64,000 nt of DNA, taken from NCBI GenBank assembly GCA_003164035.1, contig PLRS01000019.1, forward strand, positions 1 through 64,000, written 5' to 3'. Positions within the stretch are counted from its first letter, which is position 1. Each line of letters opens with the position of its first letter. The notes below the pieces were generated by a model. That model was not told the origin of the DNA. It saw only the letters and a list, made by a program, of their open reading frames with translations, and did no database searches. Of the stretch, positions 53,952 to 64,000 are shown one piece after another. Both the position numbers and the translations under genes were made by a program. Source of the stretch: Bryobacterales bacterium. GTDB taxonomy: Bacteria; Acidobacteriota; Terriglobia; Bryobacterales; Bryobacteraceae.

Positions 53952-56804
53952 CTACCGCGGCAATGCCGGCGGGGCCGAGCCGTGCGTGTCGCGGAACGGC
54001 GTCTTCGCCTCGTAAAGCTCCGCTCTGCGCTGGAGGGCTTCCGCCAGCGGCCGTTTTTTCTGCTCGGCGGCCAGGGCGATCGCCCGGTGAACAGTCTCGA
54101 TCGCCTCGGGAAACCGGCCAGCCTCGGCATAGGCGGCGGCCAGCGCATCCAGGATCTCGGGCTCGTGGCCACCGGTGAGCCGCCGGGCGCGCTCGGCAAG
54201 CGTCACCGCCTCGGCGCCATTTCTGGCCGACCGGTCCGGAGAGGTTGCCATCACCCAGGCGGTTTGCTTCAAAAGAGGTAAATAGTTGGGGGCTAAGCGG
54301 AGGCCGCCGGCCCAACTGGCCAGCGCTTCCCGGAGGCTTCCCCGCAGGTCGTAGGCGTTCCCCATGGCCCAATAAGCGTCGATGAATGCGGCATCGATTT
54401 TCAATGCCGCCTGAAAGTGCCGGATTGCCTCGTCGAAATTTCCTTCTTGAACCAAAGCCGCCCCGAGATTGAACTGGGCTTGGGCGTGATTCGGGTCGGC
54501 CCGCAGCACCGTTTCGAAATGGGCAATCGCTTCGGCGATTTTTCGCTGGTGAAGCAAGGCAGCGCCCAGGTTATTGTGAATCTCGATATCGCCGGGTTTC
54601 ACCTCGAGAGCCTTCTCGAAATGCGCGATGGCTTCGTCGAACTCTCTCTTTTCGGATAAGGCAACACCCAGGTTGTTCTGGACGTCGCCCAATTGGGGGT
54701 TGACCTCGACTGCCTTTCGCCAGTGCGCAATCGCCTCGTCCAGTCTTCCTTTTCGAGCCAGGCCGAAACCCAGAGACGCATGGGCATCGGCAAAGTCCGG
54801 ATAAAGCTCCACCGCCGTCCGCCACTGCGCCATTGCCTCGTCGGGCCTTCCCGCCACCGATAGCGCCTTGCCGAGATTCGAATGAGCCTCCGCGTATTCC
54901 GGCTTGAGTTCGACGGCCCTTTCCAGATGCGCAATCCCGTCCGCGAACTTTCCCGCCCTGACAAACGCGATACCCAGGTTGTTCTGCGCCTTGGGATTCT
55001 CCGGGTCGATCTTCAGAGCCTTTTTCCATTCCTCGATGGCCTCGACGTATCGGCCCTGGTTCGCCAACGCCAACGCCCCGTCGAAGAGCGCATAGAATTC
55101 CGCCGCCGGCACTTCCATCTTTATGAGGCCATCCGCCGGAATATTCACAAATTCCGGGATGTTCACCGCGCGGTTTGCCGCCGTGGCATTCTCAATCAGG
55201 ACTGCCGGGCTGTCGTTGCCATCCTGGTCCAAGTGGGTGAGAAACATCTGCGTATAGGGCGAACGGCTCTTCGAGGAAAAGACCATCCAGCGGCCGTTGG
55301 GCGAAAAACTGTGCCAGGAGTTCATCAGTGGCGTGTTGCACAGCATCCGCCGCGCGTGGCCGCCGCCGGCCGGAACGATGTTAAGCTGGCTATCGGGGCG
55401 CATCAGTTGGCCGTTGCGGCATTTGACAAACACGATCCAGCGGCCGTCGGGAGAAACCTTGGGGAACGAATTGCTCATGCCGTTGCGCGACGCCCCTTCA
55501 ATCGCCTCCGCCAGCCCGCCTTTGCCCCCGTTGAAAGCAACGCGGTACAGGTCGTACTGGATTTGAGTCTCTTTCGGATCGCCGGCATACTCGGCCAACT
55601 TCCCGCCTGCGGGGTACGGATTCCTGGCTTCCGCGCGGGCAAAAACCAGGTATTTGCCATCGGGACTCCACACGCCGTCGGTCTGGACGTAACGCGGATC
55701 GTCCGCGCCGGGGAGAGCTTTCATTTCTCCGGTCGCCCGGCTGTACCACGCCAGGATCCCCCGCGTCGGGTAAAACACCTGCAGAAACCGGTAGTCTTTG
55801 AAGTTGACGTCGTAGAGTTCTTCGTTGAGCGTGGTTACGGCGTACTGCCCGTCCGGCGAAACCTGCGACAAAAACCCGATCGTATGGTGTCCGGCCGGCT
55901 TGTCCCGAAAGGAATTCCAGGTGATCACGTCCCGGTCCCGGATCGACATGCGCGGCGCGAGGGGAGCGATGGCATAGGTGCCTTTGTCGTTCTCCGGACC
56001 ATCCACGTCCATCCCCAGCGTCTTGCCGTCGAGCGAGAAAGAATGACAGTTGGCGCACATCGGCAAGCCGTCGAGAATCAACCGGCTTTGGGGGCGATCG
56101 ATACTGCGCAGCCGCCAGGCAATCAGCCCGGATGCGTCCGGTGGTAACGGCCGGATCACGCCTCTTTCCGTTTCCGTGGGCAACAGCGGCACGTCACGGT
56201 AGAAGATGGGCGCGCCTACGGGGTCTTTGGAAGTTTCGATGGTTACCCGGCCGGCCGAAACCGCCTGGTTCGATTTGCCATCCCGGAAGCCGCTGATGGT
56301 AACCGTGGCCGGCCGCGCGACAGAGTGCTTCTTGATGCGGGCCCAGAGGTCGGCATCGGGCATCCAAGTGTGGGCCGCGGCTTCCAGTGGCGTCGGCTTC
56401 GGCGGCTCGTTTGTCTTCGAGACGCAACGCGGATCGATATCGCCGATTTTGACCGGCTCTCCACGCGACTCCGCCTCAATCGCGGGCGAACCATCCTCAA
56501 ACCGCACCTCGATCCGCCAAACGCTGGCAGCCTCGGCGGCATCGCGCCACACGAACGTGGGGGCAACGATTTCCGGAGGGAAAATCGACCCTTCCCGCGG
56601 ATAATCGATCGTGATCGGGTCCGGCGCCTGTGGACGCGCGACCGCGTGCCGGATGGTGGCCGTCGCCAGCGCGACAGCGGCAATCGCGGTGCCGCATACA
56701 AAGTGTCTGGACCCTCTTACCGTTTGGCCCTCCCCGGCCGCGACGAGTGGCAGCCTGCGGAAATCATTCTCCCCGGTTTCATCGTTCGCGTCAAAGGCTC
56801 TCAT
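53952..56804 (-). CDS. Exported PD40/TolB-like beta-propeller and TPR protein with one heme-c motif
   Basis: A 950-residue protein if started at ATG 56804; ATG at 56855 adds 17 residues and leaves only 30 bp to the divergent gene. A membrane segment or signal (GTAIAAVALATATIRHAVA) is followed by a beta-sandwich (SIFPPEIVAPTFVW). A single CANCH heme site in MCANCHSFSLDGKTLGMDVD comes next. PD40/WD40-like propeller repeats follow (SPDGQYAVTT, SPDGKYLVFA, SPDGRWIVFV, SPNGRWMVFS), then about nine TPR units. It precedes the seven-heme cytochrome on the same strand and probably works with it in the periplasm. Confidence 0.87.
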   Translation of the reverse strand: MRAFDANDETGENDFRRLPLVAAGEGQTVRGSRHFVCGTAIAAVALATATIRHAVARPQAPDPITIDYPREGSIFPPEIVAPTFVWRDAAEAASVWRIEVRFEDGSPAIEAESRGEPVKIGDIDPRCVSKTNEPPKPTPLEAAAHTWMPDADLWARIKKHSVARPATVTISGFRDGKSNQAVSAGRVTIETSKDPVGAPIFYRDVPLLPTETERGVIRPLPPDASGLIAWRLRSIDRPQSRLILDGLPMCANCHSFSLDGKTLGMDVDGPENDKGTYAIAPLAPRMSIRDRDVITWNSFRDKPAGHHTIGFLSQVSPDGQYAVTTLNEELYDVNFKDYRFLQVFYPTRGILAWYSRATGEMKALPGADDPRYVQTDGVWSPDGKYLVFARAEARNPYPAGGKLAEYAGDPKETQIQYDLYRVAFNGGKGGLAEAIEGASRNGMSNSFPKVSPDGRWIVFVKCRNGQLMRPDSQLNIVPAGGGHARRMLCNTPLMNSWHSFSPNGRWMVFSSKSRSPYTQMFLTHLDQDGNDSPAVLIENATAANRAVNIPEFVNIPADGLIKMEVPAAEFYALFDGALALANQGRYVEAIEEWKKALKIDPENPKAQNNLGIAFVRAGKFADGIAHLERAVELKPEYAEAHSNLGKALSVAGRPDEAMAQWRTAVELYPDFADAHASLGFGLARKGRLDEAIAHWRKAVEVNPQLGDVQNNLGVALSEKREFDEAIAHFEKALEVKPGDIEIHNNLGAALLHQRKIAEAIAHFETVLRADPNHAQAQFNLGAALVQEGNFDEAIRHFQAALKIDAAFIDAYWAMGNAYDLRGSLREALASWAGGLRLAPNYLPLLKQTAWVMATSPDRSARNGAEAVTLAERARRLTGGHEPEILDALAAAYAEAGRFPEAIETVHRAIALAAEQKKRPLAEALQRRAELYEAKTPFRDTHGSAPPALPR

Positions 56805-56885
56805 GCCCGCCCCGCCCGCCCGCCAAAATGCTACGCTGAAGCCGGTGAACTTCATGATCGCCACACACCCGTGGAACCGGGCTTC

Positions 56886-57065
56886 ATGAAACGGCAATTC
56901 TGGCAGTCCCTGATTGCCGTGCTGGCCGGAAATGCGATTTACTTCAGCACCCAGCAGTACCTGCCGCCGCGCGCGCAACACGGCATCTGCCGAATCGATT
57001 GGGGACTCGCGGTCGACTTCTGGATTTGCCTGGTGTGTTATGGCTTGGTTCGGTTGATTCGTTGA
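56886..57065 (+). CDS. Small membrane protein (hypothetical)
   Basis: A 59-residue protein, MKRQFWQSLIAVLAGNAIYF at the start, with two hydrophobic segments separated by a polar loop (PPRAQHGICRIDWG) and ending GLVRLIR. It has the look of a conserved small acidobacterial membrane protein, but this is from memory of the pattern only. It is divergent from the beta-propeller-TPR gene, 81 bp from its likely start. Confidence 0.6.
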   Translation: MKRQFWQSLIAVLAGNAIYFSTQQYLPPRAQHGICRIDWGLAVDFWICLVCYGLVRLIR

Positions 57066-58263
57066 CGGAACCCGCCCGGCGCGTGCAAGATCGCCGTCGG
57101 CCGAACGTACCAAACTGCCGGGGAAGCGCCCGGACGAATCTCGGCGCTGTAGCCAAGGGTGGCAGCGCCACGCGCGGCCCCCGATAGAGTGCGTACGCCA
57201 CGTCGAAATGGCATAGCCATCTCGTAATCGCGCAGCGGCTCGCCGCGCCAGTTGGACGAGATGAAGGAAAACAACCGGAAACGACTCTGTCGACGCCTGC
57301 CGAAGACTTCTCAGAAGATCTCAATGACGAACGAACAACCACGATATGGGCCCCGCTTGAAACGGATGGACATTACAGATCTTCTCTTATCGCTGGTATT
57401 ACTCCCGTGCGTTTTCTATGTGACGATCAGGGGCGATAGTGCGCTGCGAACAGTCTTGACTTGCGAGATCCCTCTGGCGCCTAAGATCGATCACCCCCTG
57501 TGAGAACAATCATGACAGATGACGATGTTGAAGACATCACTCAAAAGACTCTTGGCGAAGTCTGTCGAAGAGGGCTATTAAACAAAATCCGGCCCCTTAG
57601 ACCGCCTTGACCGGCCGCGCACTTCGCGGACAAGGAGCCCGAACGGCCGATAATGCCCCTGACCTCTTCGCCGGTAGCCTCATGCCATCACGGCACCCTA
57701 GTGGAGGTTAAATGACTGTAAAATAAGCAGCTTTGGGGCGCCGAAAGGGATTTTGGCCCGGGCCTGGAACGCGGCGCCGCACAATGGCGGCTGTGGCGGC
57801 GGAAGCGGCAGACGATCTGGCGGCTGAATACTCTCCGGCTGGCAACCAACGGCGCTTTTCATGTTCCTTTTTGTCCCCGTTTCTTCTGTGGAAAACTCCG
57901 GTAAAAGCTCAAGCTATTGACCTGCTTTGGGCTGGACGAATCGACCGGGGGCGATGACCTGCGGGCGGAGGCGCGCCAGATGGGAACCGCGGTCCAGCCG
58001 GATCCTGAACCCAAACGCAACGCGTTCATCCGCAGCGACCAGTACAACTTCATTCTCCTCGGGATTCCGTCCGTCCGTCATGGTAGCCTTCGGAAATCGC
58101 AAGCGGCGGCGCGGCGCCGGATCCGGCGGGATTGAGCCGGGCATCGTGGGAGTCGGCGTGATCCAGATCACACCGCAGATTCGCGTGCTGGTGGCGATCG
58201 AACCGGTGGATGGCAGGAAGGGCATCGACCCGCTCGCCAGATTGTGCCAAGACTGCTAGAATA
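57066..58263. other. 1.2-kb region without a supported gene
   Basis: Short open frames occur on both strands, but none has a recognisable domain. It holds a 31-base sequence (57122-57152) matching the hairpin repeat at 32410-32440. A minus-strand frame (about 57038-57274) and a minus-strand frame at 57914-58225 look like repeat-derived or decayed coding sequence. Base composition at 57300-57550 is less GC-rich than the rest. It could be remnants of mobile DNA upstream of the sigma gene. Confidence 0.5.
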
Positions 58264-58908
58264 ATGCCCACACAGATGGATGGAACTGAGATGGCTGCGG
58301 GCTCTCAAAGGGACTGGCCGTCGGCTGCGAACGCGTTTCAGCGGTTCCTTAACTGGCTCGATCAGGGCGTGGATTCCGGCGGGGAAACATATCTCGAGAT
58401 GCGCCGGAGGTTGGTGTTTTATTTTGACCGGAAGAACTGTGTCTCGCCCGACGATCTAGCCGATGAAACCCTGCGCCGGGTTGCCCGCCGGCTTGAAGAG
58501 GAAGGCGAAATCACAGGCAAATCGCCGGCTCACTACTGCTACATCGTCGCCAGCTTCCTGTTCCTGGAATACCAGCGCCGGCCGGCGCGCAAGCACGTCA
58601 GTCTCGGCAATCCGTCCGAGTTCGGCGATGTGGCCTCCCGGTTAGCAGCCCCACCCCAGGAGGCTTCCCCGACCGATGCCGAGACCGTGCGCCTCCACTG
58701 CCTGGAAAGCTGCCTGGAGGGCCTCGGCCGGGACGACCGGGACCTGATTGTGGGGTATTATCGCGGCGAGCAGCGCGTGAAGATCGAGCATCGCCGCACT
58801 CTCGCCACGCGACTCGGCCTGACGCCCAATGCCCTCAGCATTCGCGCCTGCCGGATTCGGGCCAAACTCGAAGCTTGCGTCAAAACCTGTTGTGCCCGCC
58901 ATGAATGA
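58264..58908 (+). CDS. ECF-like RNA polymerase sigma factor
   Basis: A 214-residue sigma70-family protein. Region 2 lies at about 45-95 (LVFYFDRKNCVSPDDLADET) and region 4 at about 165-210 (LATRLGLTPNALSIRACRIR), with a recognition-helix pattern. ATG at 58264 is chosen; Met codons 12 and 27 bases later are alternatives. The linker is longer than in minimal ECFs. It starts the sigma/membrane-anchor/CHAT run and probably directs its own operon together with other targets. Confidence 0.82.
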   Translation: MPTQMDGTEMAAGSQRDWPSAANAFQRFLNWLDQGVDSGGETYLEMRRRLVFYFDRKNCVSPDDLADETLRRVARRLEEEGEITGKSPAHYCYIVASFLFLEYQRRPARKHVSLGNPSEFGDVASRLAAPPQEASPTDAETVRLHCLESCLEGLGRDDRDLIVGYYRGEQRVKIEHRRTLATRLGLTPNALSIRACRIRAKLEACVKTCCARHE

Positions 58909-58940
58909 TTTTCCCAGTTCTGTCTTAACTGAGAGGAGCC

Positions 58941-59843
58941 ATGTTCCAGCCGAACACGCCCGAGCCCGATGACCAATGTATCATTCCGTACCTTCTGGGC
59001 GCTCCTGACGAACGGCTGGATGAGCTGGCCGTCGCCGACGACGATTTCGGGGCCCGGTTGGCCGCTGCCGAAAATGATCTCGTCGATGCCTATGTCCGCG
59101 GCGAGCTTAGCCCCGAGAGTCGCGAGCGCTTCGAGTCCTTCTACCTGACCAGCGAAGAACGCCGCGAAAAGGTGAGATTCGCGGAAGCGTTTCTTCTGTG
59201 GAGCAGTGCTATCCCCGCGCCCGCGGATGCGCGCCGCCGGCCGCACGGGCGTTGGCCCGTTCCGCGGTGGGCACTCGGTCTGGCGGCGTGCCTGGCGTTG
59301 CTTGTGTCGGGCGGCCTGCTCTACCGCAGCCAGCGGCTTCACGGGCCGGTGGCTCAGCCCCGGGCGGCGAGCGCGGTCTCCGAACAGGGCGGCCGGAAGT
59401 TGCAAAACCAGATCGAACCCCAACCGTCCGCTTCGGCCCCGCGACCCGTTGAACCGGTGCCGGACGAGCGGCAAAAAGGCGCCCAGCGAGCGCGCTCACA
59501 GAACCTGGTTGCGCTTGTTCTGCTACCGCAGACCCGGGGAATTGCCTCCCCGCCGACGCTCCGTCTGGAACCGCGCGGGGTGGAGGCCGCGTTCCGATTG
59601 GAACTCGAATCCAACGAGTCGCCTGCCTATCGCGTCACGCTGAAGGACCCGGCAACGAACCTGCCTGTGTGGGAGAGCCCCACGCTCAAAGCGGAGATCC
59701 ACGGAGGCTCGCCGTCGGTAACGGTCAGTCTTCCTTGGCCCCTGCTGAAAGCCCGAAACTACAGCTTCGAGCTCAGCGGGATCGCGCCCGATGGCAGCGC
59801 CGACCTCATCGGCAGCTACGCCTTCCGGGTTGTGATACGCTAG
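58941..59843 (+). CDS. Membrane-anchored regulator-like protein (possible anti-sigma partner)
   Basis: A 300-residue protein with AGGAG 4 bases before the ATG. Residues 1-90 are an acidic helical cytoplasmic domain (LVDAYVRGELSPESRERFES) similar to zinc-finger-less anti-sigma-like proteins. A single transmembrane helix lies near residues 112-130 (WALGLAACLALLVSGGLLY), then a Pro/Gln-rich linker and a beta-rich extracytoplasmic domain (TLRLEPRGVEAAFRLELESN). It follows the sigma gene by 32 bp. No CxxC zinc motif is seen, so the anti-sigma role is inferred from context. Confidence 0.72.
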   Translation: MFQPNTPEPDDQCIIPYLLGAPDERLDELAVADDDFGARLAAAENDLVDAYVRGELSPESRERFESFYLTSEERREKVRFAEAFLLWSSAIPAPADARRRPHGRWPVPRWALGLAACLALLVSGGLLYRSQRLHGPVAQPRAASAVSEQGGRKLQNQIEPQPSASAPRPVEPVPDERQKGAQRARSQNLVALVLLPQTRGIASPPTLRLEPRGVEAAFRLELESNESPAYRVTLKDPATNLPVWESPTLKAEIHGGSPSVTVSLPWPLLKARNYSFELSGIAPDGSADLIGSYAFRVVIR

Positions 59844-59892
59844 TTTCCCTACGGGGACCGCCGCCACCGCCGGCGGTCGGGGATGCGGTGAA

Positions 59893-62800
59893 TTGGCAAC
59901 TCAATCTCATGCTCCGGGTGGGCGTCTGATCCGGCCGGCGACTGGTGTGGCATTGGCCGCCGCTCTTTGCGCAATCTGGATGGCCGCCCAGGACAAGCCG
60001 GCAGCGACGCTCCTTCAGCGCGGCCAGGTGGTGCGCCGCGAAATCTCCGGCGGCCAGGAGCATGTGTACTCACTGACGCTGGGCGAGGGAGAATTCGCCG
60101 CCGTGGCGGTGAACCAGCTCGGAATCGATGTCGTGGTCAGAGCTCGCGGTCCGGACGGAAAGGCGATTGCCGATTTCGACAGGGAAAGCCGGACTCAGGG
60201 ACGCGAACTGGTCACCCTGGTCGCGGCCACGGCGGGTCGATTCGAGCTCGCCGTCCAGCCGAGGTATCCCAGGGCTCCCGCCGCCGAATATGACATCGGC
60301 ATCGTCGAAGTGAGGGCGGCCACCGAACGGGACCATGCCCTTTTCGATGCCTTGACGCTCTCCAGCCAATCGCAAGCCGCCGTGGCCGCCGGAAAGTACG
60401 ATGACGCCATTCAACTCGCCGGGCAGGCTCTGGCGCTGGAGGAAAAAGGAGCCGGACCCGACGATGCCTACACCGGACTCCTGCTCATCCGCCTGGCCGA
60501 CATCGATCGCATCAAAGGCAACTACGCGCAGGCCGTGCCGCTCATGGAGCGAGGCGTCGCCATCAGTCAGTCGGTCTTGGGCCGCGACCATCCGCAAACG
60601 GCGCTTGCGCTGCGAAGACTCGGCGCCCTCTACCGATACATGGGCCAGTATGACAAGGCCGAACCGCTCGCCGAGGAGGCGGTTGCCATTACCGAACGCG
60701 TGCTCGGCGCGAACCACCCCCTGACAGCGGCCGCCTTAATGGATCTCTCCGGTATCCACGAATATCGCCAGGATCTCGAAAAGGCACTGGCCGAACGCCA
60801 ACGGGCGCTGGATATCGCGGAGAAGACGCTCGCACCCGACGACATTTTTCTCATCGGCGCGGTCAACAATCTGGGCGATCTTTACAGTCTGATGGGAGAC
60901 AACCAGCGCGCCGAACCCCTCCTCGAACGGGCCCTGGCACTGGCCGAGAAGAAACTCGGGCCCGAGCATCCCAGCGTCAGCATTCCGCTCCAGGATCTCG
61001 GCATCGTCGCTCGCCAGACCGGCCGCTACGCGCGCGCCAGGGATTTCCTCTGGCGGGCGGAGGCCATCCGCGAGAAGAGCCTGGGCAGCCGCCATCCCGA
61101 CACCATCGCCCTTCTCATCAATATCGCCAATCTGTACCATGCCGAAGGCGATTACGGGCAGGCCCTGCAGTTGCATCGGCGTGCGCTCGATACGCTCCTC
61201 GAGGTCTGCGGACCTTACCACCGGCTGACGCTGATGGCTCTCGCCAATGTCGCGAGGACGTATGGAGCGCAGGGCAATTTCGGCCGCGCGTTGGAATATC
61301 AGACGCGTTACACCGAAGCTCTGGAGAAGAACCTTGCCTTCAACCTGACCATCGGCTCCGAGCAGGAGAATCTGGCTTACCTTCGTTCGACCTACGAACA
61401 TAGCGACCGTACCGTCACACTCCACGTGCGCGACGCTCCCGACGACCCCGCGGCGCGCGACCTGGCGGCCCTCGTGCTGCTGCGACAGAAAGGACGCCTT
61501 CTTGATGCGATGGCCGGCAGCATGTCGGCATTGCGCGGCAGACTCAGCCCAGACGACCGCAGGCTGCTCGACCAATTGCAGGAAGCCGACGCCGGCTTGG
61601 CACGGCTCGCTCTGGGCGGTCCCGGAAAGAATTCCGCCGCCGAGTTCAGCAACCAGCTCGCCGTGTTGGACCAGCGAAGGCAAAGCCTGCAGGCCGAAGT
61701 CAGCCGCCGCAGCGTCGAGTTTCGCGCGCGCGCGCAACCGGTCACCCTGGCTGCCATCGAGGACGCCATACCGCTCGATGCCGCCCTCCTCGAATACGCG
61801 GCCTGGCGTCCCTTCGACTGGAAAAAGCCGAATGAAGATCAAGCCTACGGACCGGCTCGTTATATCGTGTACGTGTTTCGTCACACGGGCGAGGTGCGAT
61901 GGGCGGATCTGGGCCCGGCGCGCGAAACCGACGACGCGGTGTCAGCTCTCCGCCAGGCCCTCCGCGACAGCCGGCGGACGGATGTGCGGGAGGTCGCTCG
62001 CGCCGTCGACCGACGAATTGTAGAGCCGGTGCTTCCGTTGGTTGGCGATGCCACGCGGCTGCTGATTTCGCCGGAAGGAGACCTCAGTCTTATCCCCTTT
62101 GAAGCATTAATCGATGCGCAAGGGCGCTACCTCGTGGAGAGCCACTCGATCTCCTATCTCACCGCCGGACGCGATCTCCTCCGGATGCGGGTTTCGCGGC
62201 AGGAGAGCAGCGGACCCGTCGTTCTGGCGGACCCCTTCTTCGGGGAGCCAGGAGTTTCTCCCGTCACCCCTGGCGCCCGCCCGACACGTACTCTCATGGC
62301 CGGCAGTCGCAGTATTCTTACAGGAGACGATCTGTCCGGGGTCTACTTTGCCCCTCTCCCTGGCACCGCCGCGGAGGCTCACAACATCCAATCGCTCTTC
62401 CCGGAAGCGAGGGTCTATACCGGCCGGCATGCCACCAAGAGCCTGCTGCTGCAGATCGAGGCTCCCGAGATTCTCCACATCGCCACGCACGGATTTTTCC
62501 TGCGGGACCTTGCCGGGGAGCAAGCCTCCTCCGGCGCACGGCCGGAAAACAACCGAACCGGCGCGACCCAAGCCGGCCGGCTGCCCGCCAATCCGTTGTT
62601 GCGATCGGGCCTGGCCCTGGCGGGCGCCAATCTCACCAAAGGCCTCAGCAACGATGGGATCCTGACCGCTCTCGAAGCCGCCAACCTGAATCTCTGGGGC
62701 ACCCAGGTCGTCACCCTTTCGGCTTGCGAGACCGGCGTTGGCGAGGCGATGAGCAGCGAAGGGGTCTATGGCCTGAGGCGCGCCTTCTTCCTGGCCGGCG

Positions 62801-63018
62801 CGGAAACCCTGGTGATGAGCCTGTGGCCGGTTAGCGACCGGGCCACGCGCGAAATCATGGCGGACTACTACCGCGGTCTGAAGAGCGGCCTGGGGCGTGG
62901 CGAGGCCCTCCGCCGGGCACAACTGCAAATGCTCCAGCACAAGGATCGCCGGCATCCCTATTATTGGGCTGGTTTCATCCAGGCCGGCGACTGGGAAAAG
63001 ATCGACACTTCACGCTGA
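59893..63018 (+). CDS. TPR-CHAT protease-like protein
   Basis: A 1041-residue protein with a putative signal or anchor at the N-terminus (GVALAAALCAIWMAAQ); the TTG start at 59893 has a poor ribosome site. A beta-rich domain (about 35-140) follows, then TPR units (about 150-500; family spacing of 42 residues as in kinesin-light-chain TPRs), a helical linker and a C-terminal CHAT caspase-like domain (about 720-1035). The catalytic pair is His866 (LHIATHGFF) and Cys945 (TLSACETGVG). It closes the sigma and membrane-anchor operon. CHAT proteases are cysteine proteases, several of which act in defence or cell-death pathways. Confidence 0.92.
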   Translation: MATQSHAPGGRLIRPATGVALAAALCAIWMAAQDKPAATLLQRGQVVRREISGGQEHVYSLTLGEGEFAAVAVNQLGIDVVVRARGPDGKAIADFDRESRTQGRELVTLVAATAGRFELAVQPRYPRAPAAEYDIGIVEVRAATERDHALFDALTLSSQSQAAVAAGKYDDAIQLAGQALALEEKGAGPDDAYTGLLLIRLADIDRIKGNYAQAVPLMERGVAISQSVLGRDHPQTALALRRLGALYRYMGQYDKAEPLAEEAVAITERVLGANHPLTAAALMDLSGIHEYRQDLEKALAERQRALDIAEKTLAPDDIFLIGAVNNLGDLYSLMGDNQRAEPLLERALALAEKKLGPEHPSVSIPLQDLGIVARQTGRYARARDFLWRAEAIREKSLGSRHPDTIALLINIANLYHAEGDYGQALQLHRRALDTLLEVCGPYHRLTLMALANVARTYGAQGNFGRALEYQTRYTEALEKNLAFNLTIGSEQENLAYLRSTYEHSDRTVTLHVRDAPDDPAARDLAALVLLRQKGRLLDAMAGSMSALRGRLSPDDRRLLDQLQEADAGLARLALGGPGKNSAAEFSNQLAVLDQRRQSLQAEVSRRSVEFRARAQPVTLAAIEDAIPLDAALLEYAAWRPFDWKKPNEDQAYGPARYIVYVFRHTGEVRWADLGPARETDDAVSALRQALRDSRRTDVREVARAVDRRIVEPVLPLVGDATRLLISPEGDLSLIPFEALIDAQGRYLVESHSISYLTAGRDLLRMRVSRQESSGPVVLADPFFGEPGVSPVTPGARPTRTLMAGSRSILTGDDLSGVYFAPLPGTAAEAHNIQSLFPEARVYTGRHATKSLLLQIEAPEILHIATHGFFLRDLAGEQASSGARPENNRTGATQAGRLPANPLLRSGLALAGANLTKGLSNDGILTALEAANLNLWGTQVVTLSACETGVGEAMSSEGVYGLRRAFFLAGAETLVMSLWPVSDRATREIMADYYRGLKSGLGRGEALRRAQLQMLQHKDRRHPYYWAGFIQAGDWEKIDTSR

Positions 63019-63121
63019 CCGGCGGCACAGTTTTCGCGGCTCGGCGCGTCATCGCGCGGCTTCTCCCTGCCCACGTGGTAATTTTCTCTACCAAAGCTCA
63101 GTACCCCTCGGCGAAGAAACC

Positions 63122-63152
63122 TTGAAATGTTTTTCCGGCAGCGTCTTATAGA
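63122..63152 (+). promoter_or_regulatory. Candidate promoter upstream of the GH75-like gene
   Basis: TTGAAA (63122-63127) and TATAGA (63147-63152) with a 19-base spacer, about 70 bases before the ATG at 63222. The gap from the CHAT gene is 203 bp, which allows independent transcription. Weak evidence. Confidence 0.35.
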
Positions 63153-63221
63153 GCTAGGGAGAGGTTGCCGGGCAGCCTGTCAAACGCGGTGCTGCCAGAC
63201 TCAGCACTCACGGGGGGAACC

Positions 63222-64000
63222 ATGCCAACGGACTCGATACTTGAAAAACTGACAGTAAACAGAGCCGAAGGTCACTTTGAGGACCGTTTCACCAAGGTTC
63301 ACGTATTCGAGGTTTTTGGGGGACCGAACAATTTCGCCGCCCTGATTTATATGTGCCGCCTCAACCTTGATCTGGACGGCGCTTCGAACAGCTACGGGTA
63401 CAACAATCCCAATTCATCCGCGCAGAACAATCTCAAGCCGCTCGAAAGCTGGCATACGGGCCGGAAGGGCGTTTCCACCGCGACGTCACAGAAAGTGGGG
63501 CTGGGAAACGCGTGTGGCGATCCCGGCGACGGTACGAAGGGCTGGAAAAACTTTCTGAGCGGGGACCGCAATTTTTATTGGGCCGGCATCAAGGCTGTCA
63601 CCAGAGAGCAAGCTCGATCCCTCGGCCTGTCGATTGATGACCGGGCTGAACTAGAAGCCGGCCGGGGAGGGCGCGGCAAGAAGGGCCAACCACCCTTACT
63701 ACCCGCGGGCAGCGGATATTTTCCGGTCGTCAACCAAAACACGGGTTATTACATCTCAGGCACGAGCGTGAGTTCCGATGGATCTCTCTCCGCCTATGAC
63801 CCGAACCGCTACCTGGACTCATCCGTCGTCCCCTACGCAGTGTGGGCGAACAATTGGGCCCATGTGAACGTCCTTGGAAAAAGGGTGCGGCAGGGAGACT
63901 TCGGCCTGGCGGTGAATCCCGCCACGGGGGCCAGCACCGGCTACGTCTACGGCGATAGCGGGACACAGGACAAGGTCGGCGAATCTTCCCAAAAGCTTCA
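63222..64000 (+). CDS. GH75-like (chitosanase-fold) protein, 5' part, runs off the window
   Basis: An open frame of 259 codons from ATG 63222, with GGGGGGAA 4-5 bases upstream, to the window edge without a stop. No signal peptide is seen. The N-terminal 100 residues are rich in Asn/Gly and not recognised (YGYNNPNSSAQNNLKPLESW). The rest resembles the GH75 fungal-chitosanase-like domain: YYISGTSVSSDGSLSAYDPN, YLDSSVVPYAVW, RQGDFGLAVNPATG and YVYGDSGTQDKVGESSQKL. It follows the TPR-CHAT gene on the same strand. Function of bacterial members is poorly known. Confidence 0.7.
   Translation, partial: MPTDSILEKLTVNRAEGHFEDRFTKVHVFEVFGGPNNFAALIYMCRLNLDLDGASNSYGYNNPNSSAQNNLKPLESWHTGRKGVSTATSQKVGLGNACGDPGDGTKGWKNFLSGDRNFYWAGIKAVTREQARSLGLSIDDRAELEAGRGGRGKKGQPPLLPAGSGYFPVVNQNTGYYISGTSVSSDGSLSAYDPNRYLDSSVVPYAVWANNWAHVNVLGKRVRQGDFGLAVNPATGASTGYVYGDSGTQDKVGESSQKL

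Follow-up and report, generated by a model that had tools for sequence, protein, structure and literature searches.

A recurring gene set of sigma factor, probable anti-sigma factor and TPR-CHAT protein in Acidobacteriota, and a possible proteolytic switch

We analysed the first 64,000 nucleotides of contig PLRS01000019.1 of a Bryobacterales bacterium (Acidobacteriota; assembly GCA_003164035.1, a genome of 8.0 Mb in 169 contigs), a stretch that we call the window. Its last ~6 kb hold four genes on the + strand: an extracytoplasmic function (ECF)-like sigma factor, a 300-amino-acid (300-aa) protein with one transmembrane helix that is probably an anti-sigma factor, a protein with tetratricopeptide repeats (TPR) and a CHAT protease domain that is predicted to be exported, and a GH75-like gene. 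In our view the first three genes function as one unit, and we hold this with much higher confidence than the full mechanism, according to which the exported CHAT protein would act on the anti-sigma factor to free the sigma factor; to that mechanism we give slightly less than an even chance. The four genes are all present in the order that an initial annotation of the window had described, as is a short distance between sigma factor and membrane protein: the sigma stop codon lies 32 nt from the anti-sigma gene, and the next two spacings are 49 nt (anti-sigma stop to CHAT gene) and 203 nt (CHAT stop to GH75-like gene). The features of the first three genes are as follows.

58264..58908, + strand: ECF-like sigma factor of 214 aa, starting at ATG 58264 (TIGR02989, E 3.4e-12)
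58941..59843, + strand: one-helix membrane anti-sigma-like protein, 300 aa (weak zf-HC2 and NCBIfam anti-sigma matches)
59265..59339, + strand: transmembrane helix of the anti-sigma-like protein, residues 109-133 (model; hydropathy maximum 1.91 over 19 residues)
59508..59837, + strand: C-terminal beta domain of the anti-sigma-like protein, residues 190-299, predicted extracytoplasmic (model; block predicted local distance difference test (pLDDT) 55-90)
59893..63018, + strand: TPR-CHAT protein, predicted exported, 1041 aa from TTG (Pfam; AlphaFold2 model, mean pLDDT 80.4)
59893..59994, + strand: predicted N-terminal signal peptide of the CHAT protein, about residues 1-34 (hydropathy; relatives by eye)
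59995..60342, + strand: N-terminal conserved region of the CHAT protein, residues 35-150 (phmmer; low confidence in model)
60325..61332, + strand: TPR superhelix, about residues 145-480 (TPR_12, E 2.7e-62; model; kinesin light chain and APPBP2 matches)
61990..62991, + strand: CHAT protease domain (PF12770, E 2.2e-78)
62488..62490, + strand: codon of catalytic His866 (conserved in 26/26 and 124/125 aligned rows)
62725..62727, + strand: codon of catalytic Cys945 (conserved in 26/26 and 124/125 aligned rows)

Recurrence of the three genes

The association was surveyed from the CHAT side in 99 regions, hand-picked among the matches listed from a search of 81 genomes, together with the window's own genome. 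Of 108 CHAT open reading frames (ORFs), 65 have a sigma factor within 4 kb, 70 an anti-sigma match and 57 both; among the 80 of these that are flanked by 4 kb or more on each side, the counts are 53, 58 and 46 (51/78 for sigma and 44/78 for both when two own-genome rows are left out). Random 2.7-kb placements in 40 stretches of 20 kb (800 kb, free of CHAT matches) find a sigma factor in 9.2%, an anti-sigma match in 1.0% and both in 0.7% of cases, and the latter two enrichments may be inflated because the anti-sigma profile was built on CHAT neighbourhoods only. The sigma contrast is sound, since sigma factors are about as dense in the controls (7 in 800 kb) as across the genome (58 matches in 8.0 Mb). 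ORF starts were set mechanically and several lie too early, which explains overlaps of hundreds of bases. In the window's own genome, all four CHAT genes adjoin a sigma and an anti-sigma gene, two of the CHATs sharing one pair. One own-genome locus (L006:2996-10555) consists of a CHAT gene, a sigma factor, an anti-sigma factor and a different CHAT gene, consecutively and on one strand.

The same partnership is seen from the sigma factor. A search of 149 other genomes with the window sigma finds 35 further matches at E<=1e-8, spread over 28 genomes. Among these 35, all checked, a CHAT ORF lies within 4 kb in 32, several of them being short ORFs of 174-333 aa, and an anti-sigma match within 4 kb likewise in 32; 13 of the 35 loci, or their CHAT places, overlap the CHAT-side search. 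The relatives lacking a nearby CHAT are L274 (with 354 bases upstream only), L280 and L284. One locus scored as an anti-sigma miss is L086, and at L086:3640-5172 the sigma factor and an anti-sigma-like part read as one 510-aa ORF, with a CHAT gene adjoining. CHAT mostly stands directly upstream of the sigma relative on the same strand, instead of downstream of the anti-sigma gene as in the window; it is on the opposite strand in 4 of the 32 (L096, L267, L277 and L283), and in L268 its place relative to sigma is artefactual, stemming from an open ORF. These counts describe a sigma family that is largely CHAT-dedicated.

A tree of 101 CHAT rows, in which gene orders were classed on one strand and within 2.5 kb, contains sigma-anti-sigma-CHAT in 23 rows, CHAT-sigma-anti-sigma in 21, sigma-CHAT-anti-sigma in 6 and none of these orders in 51. 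A supported group of 8 rows (99/93) includes the window CHAT, and the gene order of the window is shared by 6 of them. The partnership of sigma factor, anti-sigma factor and CHAT protein outlasts changes of gene order. Adjacency of unrelated genes by chance, which is probably the case for the GH75-like gene, receives virtually no credence from us for the first three genes, as their enrichment over random placement, from the CHAT side and from the sigma side, speaks against it.

Parts of the module and their predicted compartments

The sigma ORF opens mechanically at 58210, and ATG 58264 is the likelier start. The protein is divergent, with 46.6 bits to TIGR02989 (cut-off 124.55), 28.1 bits to TIGR02937 (E 1.3e-6, cut-off 42.9) and 13 bits to Sigma70_r2 (cut-off 24); by E-value the two NCBIfam matches are significant. 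The adjoining 300-aa protein matches weakly to zf-HC2 (E 8.2e-4, 19.9 bits, cut-off 22.2) and to the NCBIfam anti-sigma factor NF052375 (E 1.1e-3, 19 bits, cut-off 100), and it combines one transmembrane helix with a neighbouring sigma gene, as a membrane anti-sigma factor would. Its single-sequence AlphaFold2 model (mean pLDDT 66.9, modest confidence) places a helical N-terminus before helix 109-133 and the beta domain at residues 190-299, and the proteins at the anti-sigma position of sibling loci share a similar plan. Because of these weak matches, the modelled plan and its likeness in sibling loci, we regard the protein as probably a one-helix anti-sigma factor that would bind the sigma factor. 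The initial annotation had read it as a membrane anchor that senses while the sigma factor responds; the model backs its single helix and beta domain, the latter predicted to be extracytoplasmic, and the signalling character of the genes holds, but the anchor is here recast as probably the anti-sigma factor itself, a role that had been missed. The beta-domain model has no PDB match at E<=0.001, and the window anti-sigma sequence alone finds nothing in the PDB at E<=1. Anti-sigma outer domains differ among loci, being either beta or TPR-like, which gives the impression of an exchanged sensor. Judged by eye, the outer part is TPR-like and not beta in L035, L051, L056 and L068, which are loci of window CHAT relatives, and in L170, from a metagenome-assembled genome (MAG) of Ca. 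Solibacter usitatus.

The CHAT domain of the third protein scores 264.1 bits (cut-off 24) and contains the His-Cys dyad, intact as initially annotated; the alignment of 125 rows includes the window, and the one row without the dyad is truncated at that place. This conservation argues for catalysis, and protease activity is predicted. At the N-terminus, two arginines precede 18 residues (15-32) without charged or strongly polar side chains; many CHAT relatives have similar N-termini by eye, some with a cysteine that we liken to a lipobox. The TPR-CHAT protein is accordingly predicted, which the initial annotation had overlooked, to be exported and to act outside the inner membrane, so that a cut, if made, would be in the outer part of the anti-sigma factor. 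The region behind the predicted signal peptide, residues 35-150, is matched by 15 other CHAT ORFs of the survey within the order at E<=1 (phmmer), 13 of them at E<=0.0012, and by two ORFs of the Blastocatellia locus L120, one of which is a CHAT. A PDB search with the single CHAT sequence returned TPR proteins only.

The predicted compartments of the two proteins match. Among 56 same-strand CHAT/anti-sigma pairs within 2.5 kb, 49 combine an exported CHAT with a membrane anti-sigma factor; in the other 7 the CHAT is signal-less and the anti-sigma factor lacks a membrane helix. The 56 contain near-copies, one own-genome anti-sigma is counted twice, and export was assigned from hydropathy and visual inspection with 11 selections rechecked; the exported assignments of L097 and L103 (near-copies) and of L025 are doubtful, and the orthologous anti-sigmas of L050, L052 and L054, low in hydropathy, were set as membrane proteins by eye. 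A search with one of the cytoplasmic CHATs finds matches in 19 of 247 genomes of the phylum. At 26 loci from this search, taken with 1.5-kb flanks, a sigma factor is present in 18 and an anti-sigma factor in 12, none of the 12 having a membrane helix by hydropathy. In L263:1-4335 and 11 further loci, an ECF sigma factor, a soluble anti-sigma factor with a conserved C-terminal beta-like domain and a signal-less TPR-CHAT protein stand together in varied order.

A possible proteolytic switch and its rivals

The mechanism that we infer covers sigma binding, export, a signal, cleavage and autoregulation. The one-helix anti-sigma factor would hold the ECF-type sigma factor at the inner membrane, and the exported TPR-CHAT protein would work on the outer side of that membrane. 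The TPR superhelix, possibly together with the N-terminal region, would detect an envelope or extracellular signal, upon which CHAT would cut or engage the extracytoplasmic beta domain of the anti-sigma factor. Stepwise loss of the anti-sigma factor by further proteolysis would then free the sigma factor, which would probably also transcribe its own operon. In RseA/DegS systems, a membrane anti-sigma factor is first cut outside the membrane and the sigma factor is freed. DegS is a serine protease, in contrast to the candidate of the window, a CHAT cysteine protease, and we know of no CHAT protein acting as the first-cut protease of an anti-sigma factor. Gene content, the intact dyad, the recurrent association and the matched predicted compartments are computed results.

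One precedent is the signalling arm of Craspase, a type III-E CRISPR system. Passages of PMC10028731 and PMC9729208 describe that Csx29 cleaves Csx30, which binds and inhibits CASP-sigma, and the former also mentions RseA/DegS-type regulated proteolysis of anti-sigma factors. Like the window, Craspase brings together a sigma factor, its inhibitor and a TPR-CHAT protease, and the window CHAT is similar to Csx29 by CHAT profile and by model: an alignment of its model with Csx29 (chain 8eey_B) covers 484 residues of the TPR and CHAT parts (Z 26.9, root-mean-square deviation 4.2), a comparison in which three TPR-repeat chains rank higher. The window module differs in the predicted export of its CHAT protein and membrane location of its anti-sigma factor. 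The proposed mechanism is thus the Csx29/Csx30 precedent moved across a membrane, aided by the matching of compartments; for the earlier proposal that the protease cleaves the membrane protein, the backing is this precedent only.

The cytoplasmic-type CHATs come closer to Csx29. The Csx29 model NF041237 (cut-off 300) reaches at least 33.9 bits at 14 places in 12 genomes; 12 of these places are cytoplasmic-type CHATs and the other two are G281:C100 and C103. Cytoplasmic CHATs score up to 76.7 bits with this model, one of them 29.4, and the best known exported CHAT 32.0; the window genome has no match to it at E<=0.001. In a PDB profile search, the N-terminal part of the soluble anti-sigmas matches RsiW (E 1.2e-6) and DdvA (E 1.5e-5); relatives of them among Csx30 proteins were found neither in that search nor in NCBIfam (one protein).

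DdvA of Myxococcus xanthus offers a second comparison. By the titles of PDB entries 8rot and 8rw5, it is a transmembrane anti-sigma factor, and DdvS/DdvA resembles the window in pairing an ECF sigma factor with such a protein. The N-terminus of 8rot matches the soluble anti-sigma profile (E 0.0022) and its C-terminus the CHAT profile (E 6e-12). DdvA is also the first Foldseek match of the window CHAT model (E 1.9e-12, with TM-scores of only 0.21 and 0.25), and it is absent among the 50 entries listed by VIA-align with that model. In DdvA the anti-sigma and CHAT parts form one chain, in contrast to separate genes in the window, and neither of two surveys contained an ORF matched by both the anti-sigma and the CHAT profile. 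Because DdvA joins both parts, the fusion supports a functional tie between the window's anti-sigma and CHAT genes. The same fusion admits another reading, that the exported TPR-CHAT protein is a non-cutting sensor that binds the outer domain of the anti-sigma factor, as a split form of DdvA. It agrees with what passages of PMC4374960 report, that the cognate sigma factor is active once DdvA is inactivated, but it does not account for the near-invariant catalytic dyad, and we judge it quite unlikely.

An anti-phage or cell-death role, suggested initially on the ground that TPR-bearing CHAT proteases take part in such systems elsewhere, would fit Craspase being a CRISPR system and DdvS being reported to control an antiphage island (passages of PMC12288465). 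For the four proteins, PADLOC gave a single match, a generic TPR one, no search aimed at toxins or pores having been made, and its matches in six further neighbours are generic-looking kinase, phosphatase-like and TPR matches. The defence assignment was dropped because nothing supported it, and we consider such a role very improbable. The many PD-T4-6 matches of a kinase ~3 kb past the window end were read as a shared kinase domain.

Several results weigh against the proposed mechanism, beside the possible inflation of the anti-sigma enrichments. The TTG start of the CHAT protein is a prediction only, and so is the signal peptide that depends on it. The window CHAT is without a close orthologue, 34% being the best identity among 150 genomes: with five candidates scored per genome, 6 of 150 genomes, its own included, match at E<=1e-60, at no more than 38% identity and over partial length. 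In L033, the row closest to it in the tree, neither a sigma nor an anti-sigma gene is seen, with 1.9 kb of upstream sequence present, and 34 of the 80 acidobacterial CHAT ORFs with full flanks are without the pair. The seven cytoplasmic pairs form one clade (100/100), so they reflect one change and few independent events lie behind the matching of compartments. By our reading, Craspase protease and substrate are both cytoplasmic, so that we know of no proven precedent for the proposed periplasmic step. In a wide scan over Cyanobacteria, Myxococcota, Planctomycetota, Bacteroidota, Acidobacteriota and others, the best 80 of 575 confirmed CHAT loci include 4 with both a sigma and an anti-sigma gene within 4 kb (L170, L173, L180 and L196), and L125 and L163 with a sigma factor only; many of these loci end at contig ends, and the profiles derive from CHAT loci of Acidobacteriota, so that distant phyla may be undercounted. 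In other phyla, TPR-CHAT proteins that look exported but stand without the pair are common. The scan counts against a universal link. L173, L180 and L196 are from MAGs titled Zixiibacteriota, Ignavibacteriae and Eisenbacteria, each with the pair beside CHAT.

As CHAT occurs without the pair, it can act without this partner, and a reversed flow of information stays open: CHAT would be the output, an exported protease that the sigma factor induces to cut other proteins, of the envelope or foreign, and sensing of the signal would be left to the anti-sigma factor alone. The abundance of exported-looking TPR-CHAT proteins without a sigma pair favours this, as does the variation of anti-sigma outer domains between beta and TPR-like forms, which is expected of sensors. 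It leaves unexplained why soluble anti-sigmas pair with signal-less CHATs and why DdvA joins both activities, and we take it to be unlikely, though by no means negligible.

Returning to cleavage of the anti-sigma factor by CHAT, we can extend the proposal to the phylum. It is possible, although we regard it with some doubt, that sigma switches gated by proteases occur across Acidobacteriota as a family independent of CRISPR, in two forms that are each matched in compartment. Among the sets met here, the cytoplasmic one would be most closely related to the Craspase signalling arm, and maybe ancestor-like; the window form would extend this logic to the far side of the membrane, where an exported CHAT would make the first cut in the anti-sigma factor. 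If so, this would suggest a source of the Craspase protease-sigma arm, and a cysteine protease class would be added to anti-sigma proteolysis outside the inner membrane. To our knowledge, CHAT proteases are widespread and few have known substrates; if the adjoining anti-sigma factor is the substrate, a function could be assigned to a large CHAT family, with sigma release as an easy reporter.

Other described systems share single elements. According to passages of PMC11417357, the type III CRISPR system CalpL/CalpT/CalpS consists of a protease, an anti-sigma factor and an ECF sigma factor, and the protease cuts the anti-sigma factor; CalpL differs from the window CHAT in having a Lon protease domain and a SAVED domain and in being switched on by the cyclic nucleotide cA4. 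Caspase-fold systems with effector-associated domains are alike in that a caspase-fold protein lies near ECF sigma and TPR genes, and the passages describing them make no mention of an anti-sigma factor or a CHAT pairing. A literature search by title, abstract or passages, mostly in open-access sources, found no publication describing the window operon. The parts and the logic are already known; the split exported form, its largely CHAT-dedicated sigma family and the compartment-matched cytoplasmic sister form did not appear in it.

The GH75-like gene and other neighbours

The fourth gene continues beyond the window.

63222..64000, on to contig base 64271, + strand: GH75-like protein, 349 aa from ATG 63222, judged outside the module

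The initial annotation had counted this gene into the run. Its label is plausible, but its membership was rejected because a relative (E<=1e-5) was detected in only one of the 149 other genomes; in the neighbourhood search the first three genes recur, and a four-gene order is not supported. By eye, the ORF list of that one relative's 3.5-kb stretch contains no CHAT-like protein. The gene is thus probably a bystander by chance adjacency. No Pfam match is listed for the protein at E<=5, a search in which HMMER filters drop weak ones, and by tblastn it is weakly similar to a Vibrio aerogenes protein annotated as GH75 (E 7e-3, 25% of the query). The in-window part of the gene has no confirmed relative in viral contigs; the gene has no phage match and one weak plasmid match. 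A scan for promoters and terminators between the CHAT and GH75-like genes found none.

Around these genes, a 1053-aa TPR-containing protein is encoded on the - strand at window positions 53952-57113, diverging from the sigma gene. Directly after the GH75-like gene lies a gene for a 191-aa protein without a Pfam match (L005:1364-1939). Further on, in L005:3600-9571, the gene of a 1723-aa serine/threonine kinase and a gene for a 246-aa protein diverge; we take the latter to resemble a PP2C-type phosphatase.

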